This document shows positions 3,384 to 38,700 of a stretch of DNA of 42,944 nucleotides, in pieces. The notes beneath the pieces were generated by a model. That model was given only the letters and a program-made list of their open reading frames with translations. It did not search any database and was not told where the DNA came from. Source of the stretch: Planctomycetota bacterium (GTDB taxonomy: Bacteria > Planctomycetota > Phycisphaerae > Sedimentisphaerales > Anaerohalosphaeraceae). Numbering within the stretch: the stretch's first letter is position 1; each line of letters begins with the position of its first letter. The stretch lies in NCBI GenBank assembly GCA_019456225.1, contig VRUI01000044.1:1-42944 (forward strand), given 5' to 3'. The translations under genes and the position numbers were made by a program.

Positions 3384-4400
3384 ATGAAAAACTTTAAGAT
3401 AGTCATAGTTATTTGGGCTTTGAGCCTTCTTTGTGGTTGTGAGCGGTCGCCCGGACCCGGGGTTTATACGGCTAATAGCCCTACTCGCATGGTTATGGGG
3501 ACTTTTGCGCATAGCATATCTGTGGCTGCCGATAAGAAGACGGCGAAGGCGGCTAATAAGGCGGCTTTTGAGAAACTTGTCGAAGTTGATGAGATGATGA
3601 GCGATTTTCTTTTCGACTCGGAGCTTTCGAAAATCAATAGAGAGGCTTTTGGCGGGGCGGTGAAAGTGAGCGGCGAATTGTTCGAGGTTATCAGCAAGGC
3701 GATTGAGTACAGCCATATCAGCGACGGGGCTTTCGATATTACTATCGGGCCGGTTGTCGATCTTTGGCATGAGGCGGAAGAGTCGAAGATTAAGCCTTCC
3801 GATGAGGAGATCGCGGCGGCGAAGGCTAAGGTTGGGTATGAAAAGCTTATTGTTGATGCGGAAAAGAAAACTGTTCGGTTTGCGGTCGATGGGATGCGGC
3901 TTGACCTGGGGGCGATCGCTAAGGGGTATGGTGTCGACAAGGCGGCAGAAGCGATGAAAGCGGCCGGCGCCGTTGGAGGTATGGTTGATGTCGGCGGGGA
4001 TATCCGGTGTTTTGGAAAGCCCGCGAAAAAAGCGAAGTGGGCTATCGGACTGCAGGACCCGGGCAAAGACGATATTTTGATGGTGATCGAACTTGGCGAC
4101 AACGCTATCGCTACCAGCGGTGACTACCTGAGGTTTGTTGTGCTGGATGGGGAGAAATTCAGCCATATTATGGCACCGAAAAAAGGAGCCTCGGCGAAAG
4201 GACTTACTAGTGTCACTGTCATAGCCAAAACGGCGATGGATGCTGATGCTTTGGCGACGACGGTTACGGTTTTGGGGATTGCCAAGGGTTTGGAATTGAT
4301 CGAAAGCATTGACCAGGCAGAAGGTTTTATTATGCCTTCCGATCCCAATGAGGAAATAAATTTTAGCAGCGGGTTTGAGAGGTTTGTGCGTAAGAAGTGA
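3384..4400 (+). CDS. apbE: FAD:protein FMN transferase, ApbE lipoprotein
   Basis: ApbE attaches FMN through a phosphoester bond to Thr of target proteins outside the cytoplasm. The 338 residues start with a lipoprotein signal whose lipobox ends at Cys19 (SLLCGC). Family blocks follow in order: MGTFAHSI (about 38), SDGAFDITIGP (113-123), DLGAIAKGYGVD (174-185), the Gly/Asp block VDVGGDI (about 201), SHIMAP (about 260) and the metal-binding MDADALAT (about 286). The gene lies about 2.5 kb from the rnf operon. The operon encodes RnfG and RnfD, both with visible flavinylation-type Thr motifs, so they are its probable targets. It is not in the same operon and faces the other way. Confidence 0.93.
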   Translation: MKNFKIVIVIWALSLLCGCERSPGPGVYTANSPTRMVMGTFAHSISVAADKKTAKAANKAAFEKLVEVDEMMSDFLFDSELSKINREAFGGAVKVSGELFEVISKAIEYSHISDGAFDITIGPVVDLWHEAEESKIKPSDEEIAAAKAKVGYEKLIVDAEKKTVRFAVDGMRLDLGAIAKGYGVDKAAEAMKAAGAVGGMVDVGGDIRCFGKPAKKAKWAIGLQDPGKDDILMVIELGDNAIATSGDYLRFVVLDGEKFSHIMAPKKGASAKGLTSVTVIAKTAMDADALATTVTVLGIAKGLELIESIDQAEGFIMPSDPNEEINFSSGFERFVRKK

Positions 4401-7801: not shown

Positions 7802-7882
7802 AAGGGATCGCCTTTGGCGATGCTATTTTTATCAGCATGGGCACAGCCCATCCTACCATTATCCCTGCGCTTGCGCTTCGGG
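7791..7882 (-). repeat. triple-hairpin repeat, copy 1 (rnfA-rnfB spacer)
   Basis: This ~92-bp element is about 90% identical to 10937-11027. On the rnf strand it begins 7 bp after the rnfA stop codon with CCCGAAGCGCAAGCGCAGGG. It continues with ATGGGC/GCCCAT (3-base loop) and then ATCGCC/GGCGAT (3-base loop). Three successive hairpins with no ORF suggest an mRNA structure or processing element inside the operon. Confidence 0.75.
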
Positions 7883-7889
7883 TTTCTGT

Positions 7890-8480
7890 TTATCTTATCA
7901 TTCCTGCGAATCCCATGAAGGCCATTGTCAGGATTCCTGCTGTTATTAGTGTTATCGGTGCTCCCTGGAGGGCCTCGGGGACGTCTGAAAGCAGGAGGCT
8001 TTCGCGGATGCCTGCCATTATGCAGATGGCCATTGTAAAACCGATGCCTGCTCCGAAGCTCAGGACTACTGCTTCTACGAGACTTTCGATCTCCCAGAGG
8101 TTCAGGAATAGGCACAGCCCCATGATCGCACAGTTTGTCGTTATCAGCGGGAGGAACACGCCGAAGCTGTCGTACAGCGGCGGGAAGAATTTTCTTACGT
8201 ACATCTCGACGAGCTGGACGGCGCCGGCGATTACGAGAATGAAACAGACGAGCCTTAGAACCTGCAGGTTGTACTCCATGAGTATCATGTGGTCTATCAG
8301 CCAGGTGAGTGTTCCGCTAAGGGTGATTACGAATGTTACCGCACAACCCATGCCGAATGCCATGTCTATCCGGCCCGATACGCCGAGGTATGGGCAGATG
8401 CCGAGAAACTTCGTGAAGACGAGGTTGTTTACAACGACTACCGATATGAAACCAAGTACTAATGCTTGAAATGTATCCAT
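7890..8480 (-). CDS. rnfA: Rnf complex membrane subunit RnfA
   Basis: RnfA is a six-helix integral membrane subunit. With RnfE it forms the inverted pair that carries the membrane 2Fe-2S centre in the Rnf/Nqr core. Its 196 residues are the usual length. The family blocks NNLVFTKFLGICPYLGVS (about 19-36) and TTNCAIMGL (about 113-121) each contain the conserved Cys. The ATG at 8480 is the natural family start. It is flanked on both sides by repeat-containing spacers. Confidence 0.96.
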   Translation of the reverse strand: MDTFQALVLGFISVVVVNNLVFTKFLGICPYLGVSGRIDMAFGMGCAVTFVITLSGTLTWLIDHMILMEYNLQVLRLVCFILVIAGAVQLVEMYVRKFFPPLYDSFGVFLPLITTNCAIMGLCLFLNLWEIESLVEAVVLSFGAGIGFTMAICIMAGIRESLLLSDVPEALQGAPITLITAGILTMAFMGFAGMIR

Positions 8481-10936: not shown

Positions 10937-11027
10937 AAATCAAAATTATGGAATCGCCTTCGGCGATGCGATTTTATCAGCATGGGCACAGCCCATCCTA
11001 CCGCTATCCCTGCGCTTGCGCTTCGGG
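10937..11027 (-). repeat. triple-hairpin repeat, copy 2 (rnfC-rnfD spacer)
   Basis: This is the second copy of the element at 7791-7882, in the same orientation. It begins 7 bp after the rnfC stop codon, and the three hairpins occur in the same order (C-rich, ATGGGC/GCCCAT, ATCGCC/GGCGAT). Differences fall mostly in loops and linkers: a TTT versus TTC loop, and CATTA versus CGCTA linkers. Confidence 0.75.
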
Positions 11028-11034
11028 CTTTTAT

Positions 11035-12390
11035 TTACTTAGGCATTCTTTTTTTTTCGCGCGCTACCAGTATTTTTCCTGTGTTTATGTAGCCCTTTAT
11101 TTCTATGTTTGCCGGGCAGATGTAGCTGCAGCAGCCGCACTCTATGCATGTGTTCATGTGGTACTGCTGGGCGATATCAAAATGGCCGAACTTTACTGCG
11201 TGTGCGATTTTTGTCGGATTAATATTTGCCGGGCAGACGTCGAGACACCTTCCGCACCTTATACAGGCGGTTTCGCGGTTCTCAAATTTTGCGCGGGTGA
11301 TAGATTTTTTGGTCAGGACGGTTATCGCTCCACCTGTCTTTGTTATCGGGGTTGAAAGGTCTGCGATAGCGAATCCCATCATCGGTCCGCCGAGCAGGAC
11401 TTTTGAGGCGCCCTCTGTAAGGCCGCCGCACAGGTCGATGAGTTCGCTGACCGAGGTGCCGACCGGGACATAGAAATTGCCGGGATTGTTTATTCCTTCG
11501 CCTGTTACGGTTACGACTCTGTGGGTGAGGGGCTCGTTGAATACTACCGCTTCGGCGATCGCGGCACAGGTGCAGACGTTAATGACCAGCACGCCGATCA
11601 TTGGCGGGATTCCGCCGGCTGGTACGTCTTCGTCCAGGATCGACTTGATGAGCTGGCGTTCGCCGCCCTGGGGGTATTTGGTTTTGACGGGGCAGACTTC
11701 GATGCCTTCACAGCCTTTGCCGTTTGCCAGTGCTTCTTTGACGGTTGCAATCGCTTTGGGTTTGTTGTCTTCTATACCAATATATACGTTATCGCATCCG
11801 GAGATCTGGCGGACGAGCTTTACTCCTGCGATGAACTGGTTTGTCCATTCTAGCATTACGCGGTAGTCGCAGGTGATGAACGGCTCGCACTCGCAGGCGT
11901 TTACAATGATCGCTCTTTTTTCGGGTTTTGCGCCGGGGTCGACCTTTACGCGGGTGGGAAAACCGGCTCCGCCCATGCCGACTATGCCGGCGTTGCGGAT
12001 TGCGTCGCCGATCTGGGCGGCTGAGTATTGTTTTTCGTCGAAATTTTCGTCGAATTTTTCCGGGCATGGGAATTTTTGTGTGTCGGTCTCGGGGTCTACG
12101 TCGATAACTATCGCCATTTCACGGCCGAGAACGGGGTGAGACTGCAAAACTATGTCTTTAACGGTTCCGCTTACGGGGGAATGTACCGGGGCAGAAACGA
12201 ACGCGTCAACGTCGCCGATCAACTGGCCGGCGGTGACTGTGTCTCTTTTGGCTACGAGGGGTTTGCAAATTGCACCGATGTGCTGGCTGAGCATTACGGC
12301 GACCTGTTTTGGATGGGCGAGCGGGGTGATTTCGCAATTTTCCGTGAGCTCTTTGTAGTCAGGCGGGTGAACACCGCCTGGAAACGTCAT
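11035..12390 (-). CDS. rnfC: Rnf complex NADH-binding subunit RnfC
   Basis: RnfC is the peripheral NADH/FMN subunit, 451 residues. The N-terminal GGVHPPDYKELT and the barrel-sandwich block APVHSPVSGTV (about 67-77) are typical. A GxGxxG-type flavin/NADH region follows (GMGGAGFPTRVKV, about 138-150). Two 4Fe-4S ferredoxin motifs close the protein: CIRCGRCLDVCP and CIECGCCSYICP. It is the second gene of the operon, 8 bp after the RseC-like gene. Confidence 0.96.
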   Translation of the reverse strand: MTFPGGVHPPDYKELTENCEITPLAHPKQVAVMLSQHIGAICKPLVAKRDTVTAGQLIGDVDAFVSAPVHSPVSGTVKDIVLQSHPVLGREMAIVIDVDPETDTQKFPCPEKFDENFDEKQYSAAQIGDAIRNAGIVGMGGAGFPTRVKVDPGAKPEKRAIIVNACECEPFITCDYRVMLEWTNQFIAGVKLVRQISGCDNVYIGIEDNKPKAIATVKEALANGKGCEGIEVCPVKTKYPQGGERQLIKSILDEDVPAGGIPPMIGVLVINVCTCAAIAEAVVFNEPLTHRVVTVTGEGINNPGNFYVPVGTSVSELIDLCGGLTEGASKVLLGGPMMGFAIADLSTPITKTGGAITVLTKKSITRAKFENRETACIRCGRCLDVCPANINPTKIAHAVKFGHFDIAQQYHMNTCIECGCCSYICPANIEIKGYINTGKILVAREKKRMPK

Positions 12391-30332: not shown

Positions 30333-30369
30333 AAGCAGAAAAAGGGTGGATGAGGGGACTTGAACCCCC
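30333..30369. repeat. att-like direct repeat, left (tRNA-His 3' fragment)
   Basis: This is 37 of 37 bases identical to 31589-31625. Bases 30345-30369 correspond to the T-stem, T-loop and 3' acceptor strand of tRNA-His on the minus strand. Homology stops exactly at the T-stem. Confidence 0.88.
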
Positions 30370-30438
30370 ACGATTCGTTAGCTTTAATTAAAATATTGGT
30401 GCTGGAAAGTTTAAATATTTTGAGTTATTATATCGTAC

Positions 30439-31569
30439 ATGCAATTGTTCGGAAACGACATAGAAGGTGGATTGGAGCTTTACAAAAAACTGAACCCAAA
30501 ATACGTCCCTGCTTTTGAGAAATTCTCACCTGAGAATAAAGCTGCACTTGCGTTATATTTTCTACCTCATACATCAAAGAAAGATGTGCTAGGCGTTACT
30601 CGTCCCAGGATGGTCAAGTGGTATTGTCCATTTGCAAACCAGAAGGATTTCCCTAGCGGTCATCGGTATTGCATAAATGTCTATACCGGATGCAGTCATA
30701 ATTGTCGATACTGTTATGCTCAGGGCTATGAGCCAGATGAGGCAAAATGCAAGGACAGCTATAAAAAGAAGCTGCAGAAAGACCTTTCAGAAATTGAAGA
30801 TTTCAATATCCCCGCCGCCCCACTTCACTTGTCCAACAGTACTGACCCGCTTCAACCTCTGGAATTGAAGCAAAGATTGACGCATTATACACTAGAACAG
30901 ATTGCCAGATATAGAAAGTATTTTACTACAGTAACTATCCTGACGAAAAACCCAACAATTCTCACTGAACCTACATATCTGGAAGCTTTGTCATCGATTA
31001 TGAAGCTTCCGAAAAACCACAGTTGCAATGAAATGTTCAACTCGACATCACTGCCTCCTTTGAGAATAGAAGTTTCTGTTGCTTTTCAGGATGAATCCAA
31101 TGCATCTTTCTATGACACTGGAGCTCCGAGTATTAACAGCAGGCTTTCAGCTATTGAGACATTGCGTAAAAATGGTATACCGGTTGTTCTACGTATTGAC
31201 CCGCTTCTTCCACGCAATCCACTGCCCTATGGAAAATCACTCGAAGACTTTCAATTGCCGGATGCCCAGAGCCTTAATGCTTTAGAATCTCTGGTAAACT
31301 TTGCCAAGGAACAACAACTCCTACATATTGTTTATTCGGTCGCAAAAGTTGTTATGCCCAGGTACAAACCTATGCTGGAATCAATGGGCAGACTCAAGCA
31401 AGTCTATGAACACATCGCCAATGGTGAAAAACTGGTCTTTCGAGGCGGTTCATGGCGACTGCCCGATAAACTTGCTCAAGTCCACATTACAATGCCATTT
31501 GTTCAAATATGTAATAGTTATGGAATGAATGTCTACTACTGCAAACAAAACCTCCTTAAAACACCTTAA
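30439..31569 (+). CDS. SPL-like radical SAM protein carried by the tRNA-His insertion
   Basis: This 376-residue radical SAM enzyme has a [4Fe-4S] motif CX3CX2C at Cys85, 89 and 92 (YTGCSHNCRYCYA). Two further Cys upstream (63 and 78) might bind a second cluster. The region SGHRYCINVYTGC and the later VSVAFQDE and LRIDPLLP blocks place it near the spore photoproduct lyase/Rv2578c/PA0069 group of DNA- or RNA-related radical SAM proteins. True SPL catalytic identity is not shown. The CDS fills almost the whole insertion and ends 19 bp before the right repeat. The ATG at 30439 has no obvious Shine-Dalgarno sequence. Confidence 0.82.
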   Translation: MQLFGNDIEGGLELYKKLNPKYVPAFEKFSPENKAALALYFLPHTSKKDVLGVTRPRMVKWYCPFANQKDFPSGHRYCINVYTGCSHNCRYCYAQGYEPDEAKCKDSYKKKLQKDLSEIEDFNIPAAPLHLSNSTDPLQPLELKQRLTHYTLEQIARYRKYFTTVTILTKNPTILTEPTYLEALSSIMKLPKNHSCNEMFNSTSLPPLRIEVSVAFQDESNASFYDTGAPSINSRLSAIETLRKNGIPVVLRIDPLLPRNPLPYGKSLEDFQLPDAQSLNALESLVNFAKEQQLLHIVYSVAKVVMPRYKPMLESMGRLKQVYEHIANGEKLVFRGGSWRLPDKLAQVHITMPFVQICNSYGMNVYYCKQNLLKTP

Positions 31570-31588
31570 ACGATGCCATCTGGAAAAA

Positions 31589-31625
31589 AAGCAGAAAAAG
31601 GGTGGATGAGGGGACTTGAACCCCC
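31589..31625. repeat. att-like direct repeat, right (within intact tRNA-His)
   Basis: This is the 37-bp copy that includes the 3' half of the intact tRNA-His gene (31601-31625) and its 3' flank with the T-run. Confidence 0.88.
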
Positions 31626-31675
31626 GACCCCCAGGATCACAACCTGGTGCTCTAGCCAGCTGAGCTACATCCACC
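31601..31675 (-). tRNA. tRNA-His (GTG anticodon)
   Basis: Read on the minus strand, the acceptor GTGGATG pairs with CATCCAC, the D-arm is GCTCAGCTGGCTAGAGC, and the anticodon loop TTGTGAT gives GTG (His). The T-arm is GGGGG-TTCAAGT-CCCCT. A G at position -1 faces C73, as required for tRNA-His. CCA is not encoded. A T-rich run follows the 3' end. The gene is the integration target of the neighbouring 1.26-kb insertion. Confidence 0.95.
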
Positions 31676-35725: not shown

Positions 35726-38700
35726 TCACTTCACCGTCGGCGTTACAAGTATAATCATATTGTTTTTAACAGGCTTCTTTTTAATCCCAAGCCACCTGCG
35801 ATGCACCCTTGGATCCTTTATATCTTTGAAGGATATTTTAGTTCCCCCGTGGTCGTAGTCATTGTTAGTATTACCATCCTTATCGAGCAACTTCACACCT
35901 GCAATTATCAATGTTTTACCTCGTGGAATCTCAAACCGCCCCCTCAGTTGTGTCTTTAGCAATTCAGGAACATTATATGTCTTGCCGGATTTATGCTTAC
36001 GCTCCTGTATCGATACATCATCTATCATTAAGCTGTAAAAAGTAATATCAACATTACCGCTGTCTTTCAACACCTTAGGCAACAGGTCAAGTTTAATCCC
36101 TGTCTCAAGTGTTTTTGTAACGGCCTCAAATGTCTTACCTTTATTGCCTTCAACTTGCTTGTACCCGGACACATACTTGTTTTCTTTGACAATAGAAATA
36201 TGCCCCGGCTCACCATCGACAACACTTATCTTCGGAGCGGTCAGTATATGGAATTCACTACTAGTACTCGATGCTCGTCTAAGAAACTCAAGTATTAGAT
36301 CGCCATCGTCAACGTACTTAAATACAATATCATCCGAATCGTCGACGCCCATATGCCGAAGTATTTCAGCTGCTTTTTCATCCTCCATCGGTTTACTGCC
36401 TTCAAAGAATTCGTATGAAACCTCCGGCCAGAAATATGGTTTTTCCATCTTTTTGACAGCTATATTAATAGCATTTAATCCGATATCCTCTGTAAAATTT
36501 TCATTTGCAATAATAAATCGAGTTTCAATAGAAACCTGTTGATCACCTGGCTTAACGGGCAAACCTTTTAAAACCTTATGTGGATCACCCTTAAACGGAC
36601 CATAATAATAAGCTGAACCTGAACCGAACAGGCCGCGTTGAAGAACATAAAACACATTCTTCTTCGGCAAGTAATATACTGCCCCATCATCGGCGATGTA
36701 AATTTCCTCTACCTTATCACGAATATAATATTTCTGATAACCGGCTTCCTGCGGCTCAAAAAAATCGGTAATCTCATAAGGCTTGTAAGTTACAGCAGCC
36801 TTAGAAAGATCAAGCCCGTAAAACATAAGCGATTTCCCGCTGGCCTTTACCTTACTTTTTTCAAGTTTAATGACTTTATCGTTTTCATCAAAAAATATAT
36901 TGTAAAAATGCGGATCATCCCTTTGGGCATGAAATTCCCATTTTTTCCCTCCATCCATTTCCTTTTGATTGTGCCCAAGCCTGCCATTAACTTGCTTTTT
37001 TGTCATGCCGATCCGTATGAATGTCCAGTTCCTGTCATAACTACTCAAAAACTTCATCCAGGGACCATCCACATGAAACACTTTGCCGTCATCATCAAAA
37101 TAAAAGTCAAACACATAACTTGGAGCAGGGCTATAAGCTATATGATCGTCGCCGCCTATATCTGGATACATAGGTCTCCCCAAAATACCTATTACCTGTT
37201 TCTTTGAAAGCCTGCGCTTAAGGCAAATTTTCGCTGCAGCCTCGACGTTCTTAGGGTCTCTCCATGTATGCAGAATTTTTTCTTCTTCTGTCCAGTCAGC
37301 GGTTTCACCCTTAGCTTTTAACTCTTTCTCCATTTTTTCCAGATACGCCTCAACCTTCTCATGAACAGATGGAGCATGATGGACCATAACTATACTTGTT
37401 CCAAATCTCCTAACCGTGGCTTTAAACTCGTCATCTATCTTTACTGTTGGGAAAATATTATTTTTTATATGAGTAACTATTTCCTTCGTAAGTACCACTG
37501 CCGCTTCCACATCAGCATTTGAGATTTTATCATCCCTGAGAAATTGAATGTTCGCCAATCTCAATAATTCTCTAATATCATAACTCCTGAACTCCGCCTT
37601 AGTTTTAGCAAACTTAATTACCTTGTCGTTTTCATCGAAGTATATGTTATAGTAATGCGGATCATCTCTTTGAGCGTGGAATTGCCATTTTTTCCCACCG
37701 TCCATTTCTTTTTGATTATGCCCAAGCCTAGTATTGACTTGCTTCTTTGTCATGCCAACCTTTATAAACGCCCAGTTCCTATCATAACTACTCAAAAACT
37801 TTATTCCAGGGCCATCTATAAGAATAACTTTGCCTTTATCGTCGTAGTAGATATGTATAACTTGAGAATAAAAAACCGTATAAGCTGACACATTAGGGGA
37901 TGAATGCTTCGAGTCAGGCTCCCCAAGAAGCGCTTCAATTTCTGTTTTTAACATTCCTGCTTTTAGATATGGCATTAGGATCTCTGCTGCTTTATATCGA
38001 AAACCCATTCGGCCTTTTTCAGATTGGAAATCTTTTATAGCCGCTTCAACTTCTGAACTGAATTTAGATTCCTTCTTCACCTCAGTTTTGTCATTGTCAA
38101 TAACACTATCATTCTCATTATTATCGCGTGCTGTCAACACACACCCAACCGGCAGCGCAAACATGGCAAGCAATATAATCGTAATAAGCGCAAACACCCC
38201 GCACCTCGCATAAAACTTCTTCCCAGGCCGCATAATAGTTTTCAGCCTGTCCTCAATATTTTTTGCAGGCCCGGCGACGGCAAGCGAAGGAACCGGTATG
38301 TTAGATTCATACTCGCGTGTCAAAGTATCTATAATAGCATTGCCATAGTCACGCGGCACACTTTTCAACTTCGCAATAGCCGCCTCATCGCAGCACTTCT
38401 CCCGCTCGCGCCGAACCATAGTATTAGCGATCCAGACAAGCGGATGAAACCAAAACAACCCCTGGGCGACGATCTGCAAAACATTAACCCCGGCGTCGAA
38501 CCTGCGAACATGCGCAAACTCATGCATAAGTATCCCACGCTGATCCCCAACACTTCCGCACTCGCCAAAATTACCCGGCACATAAACGCTCCCCCGCAAA
38601 ATCCCCCAGACAAAAGGCTGACCGATCCCATCGATCTGCCAGACATTAATTCCATCATCGCCGGCAACACAAATATCAAGCTCCGCGACCCGCCGCAAAG

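Follow-up and report, generated by a model that had tools for sequence, protein, structure and literature searches.

A one-gene, integrase-less unit bounded by tRNA-His repeats carries an SPL-fold radical-SAM gene in a planctomycete genome

In the genome of a planctomycete bacterium, a single gene for a radical-SAM protein with the fold of spore photoproduct lyase (SPL) lies between two identical 37-bp copies of a tRNA-His gene end. This repeat pair is the scar left where a tRNA-targeting recombinase integrated DNA, and the unit that it delimits is most likely a very small element of the cis-mobilizable type (CIME-like). Taken as a whole, the explanation that we consider probable is a minimal att-flanked island of the CIME type, devoid of an integrase, whose laterally acquired SPL-fold gene may have an RNA-directed role. 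The whole stretch of DNA that was analysed, 42.9 kb, is called the window here. L-numbers designate homologue or context loci and G-numbers genomes, G000 being the host genome and C-numbers its contigs. The unit and its target comprise the following features:

30333..30369, minus strand: far-end att copy, the displaced 3' fragment of tRNA-His plus 11 nt (37/37 direct repeat)
30403..30431, plus strand: predicted promoter TGGAAA-N17-TATTAT of the leaderless type (9 of 12 matches; position of the -10 box common to relatives)
30439..31569, plus strand: SPL-fold radical-SAM gene, 376 aa, sole gene of the unit (ORF, PF04055, AlphaFold2 model, fold match)
31589..31625, minus strand: att copy in tRNA-His, reaching just downstream of it (37/37 direct repeat)
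31600..31674, minus strand: intact tRNA-His (GTG), the integration target (ARAGORN)

The perfect repeat announced in the preliminary description was confirmed: the two att copies are identical in direct orientation at 37/37 positions and lie 1256 bp apart. Each consists of the final 26 nt of tRNA-His (T-arm and 3' acceptor strand) and 11 nt of downstream flank, and similarity is lost sharply at both edges. By our own estimate, about 1e-13 chance matches of 37 bp would be expected in 43 kb, and no second perfect direct repeat of that length was reported in the whole window. Throughout the host genome, the 26-nt tRNA part occurs at two places only, both at the unit ends (up to three mismatches allowed). 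An Rfam scan returned a single tRNA-His match over the cut-off in this region of the host genome; such a genome scan is insensitive to short tRNA pieces and missed the known 26-nt one. This anatomy supports the earlier interpretation of an intact tRNA-His at one end and its 3' fragment at the other as a scar of site-specific integration. Elsewhere, the window contains two families of imperfect direct repeats, one of 247 nt (36850-37096 and 37597-37843, 80%) and one of 77 nt (7827-7903 and 10972-11048, 87%).

One real gene is present between the att copies, preceded by 69 bp and followed by 19 bp. No integrase is encoded within 30333-31625, as had been stated before, which places the unit outside the autonomous tyrosine-integrase tRNA islands; the 1256-bp unit also contains no remnant of a lost integrase. 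The host genome contains the unit only once, and the tRNA-His att has no match in viral contigs. The radical-SAM gene has a GC content of 41.6% (GC3 39%) versus 46.4% for the window; its ORF is intact and keeps every residue that is invariant in the homologues. The predicted promoter, within the 69-bp leader, ends 7 nt ahead of the ATG. Promoter matches are no more numerous than expected by chance in the region scanned for promoters and terminators, and we accept this one solely on the ground that relatives have it at the same place: in the four closest (L050, L051, L076, and L082) the -10 box ends 6 nt upstream of the start, and in three of these four TGGACA-N17 precedes it. Apart from the promoter, the similarity between the flanks of these relatives' genes and those of the window gene does not exceed that of shuffled sequence. 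The shared position, a sequence feature, points to a putative leaderless transcript and to a promoter that may move with the gene.

The encoded protein harbors the cluster motif CX3CX2C at C85/C89/C92, invariant in 25 homologues, which together with the fold assigns it to the radical SAM superfamily; the PF04055 match itself (E=2.8e-5) is below the Pfam cut-off. C63, C358, and C368 are likewise invariant in these 25 homologues. Kinship with SPL is weak in sequence (PF20903, E=0.48) and clear in fold. The AlphaFold2 model (pLDDT 91.6) has spore photoproduct lyase as its best match among solved structures (Z 18.7, rmsd 3.3 A over 251 residues, 16% identity). The top rows of the fold search are all SPL (Z 18.5-18.7), so that the model, compared with solved structures, has the overall SPL fold, whereas RlmN (Z 15.9) and viperin (Z 14.9) rank lower. 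That an SPL-related radical SAM is the sole cargo, as previously proposed, is thus supported by both ORF content and fold. The likeness to SPL comprises the fold, the radical-SAM motif, and a conserved Asp after the third strand. The differences are the low identity, the additional invariant C63, C358, and C368, and the position of the SPL hydrogen donor, C140 in 4fhc, which aligns with an invariant Asn133 (alignment via the SPL-like protein of L055). Because the scaffold of SPL is combined with Asn in place of the donor Cys, the name spore photoproduct lyase is unwarranted: judging from the model and the alignment, the window protein has an SPL-like scaffold and should not be called a true spore photoproduct lyase. 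Its best sequence matches are PA0069, Rv2578c, and radical SAM mobile pair protein B (TIGR04470, mob_pairB), at 2e-13, 2e-9, and 1e-6, the last being likewise named for mobile settings. However, all curated cut-offs are missed widely (49.8 vs 360 bits; 28 vs 410), and membership in an NCBIfam radical-SAM family was rejected. We also rejected an identity as viperin (pVip), given 13 bits against a cut-off of 180 and a fold Z of 14.9, lower than that of SPL, and assignment to a known anti-phage family, PADLOC giving pVip matches only (E 0.03).

Strict vertical descent of the gene had been named beforehand as the observation that would speak against an insertion. The gene tree unites the window copy with L050 and L051 (100/100) and excludes the copy of G029 (L061), yet G029 belongs to the host's own family. 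With IspG as a yardstick, G029 is the nearest to the host (68%), before the genomes carrying L051 (63%) and L050 (61%). The conflict between the two implies that the radical-SAM gene moved horizontally; these comparisons do not support strict vertical descent. Among the 59 near relatives that were compared with the host, a close copy (52-54% identity) is present in 3. The tree, the sporadic occurrence, and the genomic context show that this is a laterally moving SPL-fold radical-SAM gene of Planctomycetota/Verrucomicrobiota mobile elements. No empty tRNA-His site with the window flanks was found among the compared genomes because none of them, none being of the host genus, is close enough; the tRNA-His loci of five relatives have no synteny with the window and no second tRNA fragment.

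A scan of genome contigs identified 36 loci of the gene family, nearly all in Planctomycetota and Verrucomicrobiota. Bracketing by tRNA fragments is observed at 4 of 37 loci, window included, and involves tRNA-His, tRNA-Met, tRNA-Gly, and tRNA-Pro; this count is a lower bound, as many contigs are too short to display both ends. The preliminary description held a radical SAM as sole cargo to be unusual. The insert is not unique: three more tRNA genes bracket units with the gene family, two of them integrase-less, and tRNA fragments beside the family, which it had proposed to look for, do exist elsewhere. In all four loci the gene is oriented toward the intact tRNA, and an integrase is present only inside the tRNA-Pro island, being absent from the His, Met, and Gly loci. 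The tRNA-Met locus (L053, identical to L017) is an array of two tandem integrase-less units of 3.3 and 5.3 kb, with the family gene in the second, flanked by chromosomal genes. The tRNA-Gly unit (L063) has a 45/45 repeat, is 2.87 kb long, and encodes two genes. The tRNA-Pro island (L059) measures 6.8 kb, and its core spans 30 columns with one mismatch. Phage genes are neighbours of some homologues, for example one for a portal protein (L052) or for a DnaC-like helicase loader (L079). No radical-SAM gene, integrase, or methyltransferase of these families was found in viral contigs, and since these also lack an att match, the connection with prophages is based on host contigs. Rfam detected no hidden tRNA pieces on eight short contigs that carry homologues. 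Two further candidates were rejected as bracketed loci: L058, with a tRNA-Pro 2.8 kb from the gene and no matching fragment, and L056, which is irregular. In L056, repeats of ~180 bp (372-570 and 3658-3856) containing the 5' part of a tRNA-Arg surround a methyltransferase/radical-SAM pair; it is the 5' part that is repeated instead of the 3' end, and no intact tRNA is seen. The homologue of L055 lies on a contig labelled Candidatus Nealsonbacteria and groups with Pirellulales/Planctomycetales copies, reflecting a binning error or a transfer.

One of the closest homologues, L050 (64%), shares its short contig with genes for a methyltransferase and a tyrosine integrase, and the host genome carries relatives of this integrase. 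On contig C47 (L095, 9153-9647), a C-terminal integrase remnant is located directly 3' of tRNA-Tyr. On contig C33 (L096, 9480-10200), an apparently internally deleted tyrosine integrase lies between an intact tRNA-Arg(acg) and the 3' fragment of a second tRNA-Arg, which extends over the 3' half from the anticodon loop on; this site is a decayed tRNA island. These remnants indicate past activity of the L050-type integrase family at the 3' ends of tRNA genes in the host, where it has decayed; this favours the view that a larger island collapsed at tRNA-His. A 500-aa open frame of the same integrase family on contig C5 makes mobilisation in trans possible; an integrase with specificity for tRNA-His was not found.

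We propose the following scenario. A tRNA-targeting recombinase, probably a tyrosine recombinase as in the relatives, inserted an incoming element at the tRNA-His 3' end. With its own copy of this end the element kept tRNA-His intact, and the displaced original end is the 37-bp fragment now found 1256 bp away. The integrase and any partner gene would then have been lost, or may have departed together with a tandem unit next to this one, so that a single gene with a putative leaderless-type promoter of its own was left.

CIMEs are by definition elements that have lost their integration and transfer genes and kept attL and attR (PMC5704250). The window unit is att-flanked and has neither integrase nor transfer genes, so that it has the anatomy of a CIME and is a candidate for derivation from a larger element and mobilisation in cis; among the relatives, the tRNA-Pro island has an integrase and the tRNA-Met locus is a tandem array, as in accretion. 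The unit differs in being reduced to one gene and 1.26 kb, in its planctomycete host, and in lacking any trace of a conjugative element from which it could stem. It departs from described CIMEs by its size, its single gene, and its recurring cargo, and is not a new kind of element. In Dehalococcoides, 15 islands at ssrA are devoid of an integration module (PMC3146451). The islands at this gene are similarly bounded by direct repeats of the 3' end of an RNA gene, some of them are integrase-less, and these were judged to be possibly mobilised with their neighbours (PMC3146451). In contrast, they involve a serine recombinase, a tmRNA gene, and reductive dehalogenase cargo, where the window unit has tRNA-His, a radical SAM, and tyrosine recombinases in its relatives. 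If our reading is right, one gene, its promoter, and a pair of att sites are enough for a mobile cassette to endure at a tRNA, and scanning for single genes flanked by tRNA fragments would catch mobile cargo missed by integrase-based island finders.

One alternative, that no integration occurred and that an ordinary duplication placed a tRNA end by the gene or the contig was misassembled, draws what credit it has from the metagenome-type draft state of the host genome (152 contigs). Nevertheless, the repeat has exactly the limits of an att core, unrelated assemblies show an equal geometry at three further tRNAs, and 37 bp is shorter than ordinary short reads; we regard this alternative as highly improbable. 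The unit might instead be still mobile, a minimal element of att sites and one gene moved by an integrase that the cell encodes at another place. The core repeats of the integrase-less units, 37 bp (His), 43 bp (Met), and 45 bp (Gly), are all perfect, as expected if they are kept in working order; the open frame on contig C5 belongs to the right integrase family, and hitcher elements borrowing integration or transfer are widespread (PMC11389934). However, identity over 37 bp is equally expected from a moderately recent single event, the genome provides no second copy of the unit and viral contigs no match to its att, and those host integrases that can be placed sit at other tRNAs and are broken. 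Present mobility seems to us unlikely, albeit worth keeping in mind, and we prefer the decayed CIME-like island.

The main functional rival is that the protein is an SPL-type DNA-repair enzyme that rides mobile elements by chance. The fold match to spore photoproduct lyase speaks for this rival, and the partner methyltransferase described below pairs also with proteins much nearer to SPL in sequence. But the replacement of the donor Cys140 by an invariant Asn133, the 16% identity, the mitoribosome assembly factor fold of the recurrent partner, and the conflict-type genes in the neighbourhood argue against it, and we hold it to be improbable. The likely job that we prefer, with less than even confidence and from neighbours and fold, would be radical chemistry on RNA, perhaps ribosomal, in an accessory or anti-phage role.

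A methyltransferase-like gene adjoins the radical-SAM gene in L050, L053, L054, L061, L063, L070, and L076. For the L050 protein, a model with pLDDT 87.5 has METTL17/Rsm22 as its best fold match (Z 20.3, rmsd 4.2, 236 residues), but at 11% identity, and Pfam gives no match of this methyltransferase type to the Rsm22 model. The methyltransferase also weakly matches UG25/UG35 reverse transcriptases (best 4e-9); we set these aside as probably reflecting a common methyltransferase-like domain. Among the 59 relatives we found eight matches, one of them a short broken piece. The other seven, including one with two stop codons in the match, all (7/7) directly adjoin a radical-SAM gene, the partner being of the window family in two cases, of the SPL type in four, and of the PA0069 type in one. 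The METTL17/Rsm22-like methyltransferase thus also accompanies proteins far nearer to SPL in sequence than the window protein. This recurrence with different radical-SAM subfamilies is the strongest evidence that the two enzymes may act in one pathway. The methyltransferase gene is absent from the host genome, which makes the window gene an orphan. No published description of the pair was found in the part of the literature covered, which is weak evidence of novelty; the gene module appears to be undescribed so far, the anatomy of the element being of a known kind.

The neighbours of other family members offer hints as to function. The tRNA-Met array encodes a DUF488 protein and an ATPase that match the PADLOC candidates PDC-M45C (2e-59) and PDC-S01 (3e-156), respectively, the tRNA-Pro island carries AbiEi and HipA genes, and a Fic protein gene lies near the radical-SAM gene in L050. 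Toxin-antitoxin and candidate-defence genes are the usual company of accessory conflict genes. The defence function suggested in the preliminary description thus gains support from the neighbours and prophage settings of relatives, and stays conjectural. The SPL-type radical SAM and METTL17/Rsm22-like methyltransferase of planctomycete prophages and islands are candidates for a novel system, accessory or defensive, that modifies RNA. More speculatively, and with considerable doubt, the two enzymes may form an undescribed mobile anti-phage or inter-element conflict system that modifies rRNA or tRNA and is spread by prophages and by integrase-free tRNA micro-islands moved by borrowed integrases, the window unit being its smallest, one-gene form.

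Other arrangements of the radical-SAM gene were observed. In L055-L057, a different methyltransferase-like gene, of 493-525 aa, lies upstream; in a third arrangement, a DUF488 gene is nearby. In a phage-like region of L079 (9897-11010), a dual-OB protein is encoded beside DUF488, next to a frameshifted radical-SAM copy. In five relatives (G040, G005, G048, G056, and G057; loci L108-L112), the METTL17/Rsm22-like methyltransferase is paired with an SPL-type or PA0069-type radical-SAM protein, and several of these loci adjoin small genes recurrent in phage-like neighbourhoods and an Rz-like lipoprotein gene.
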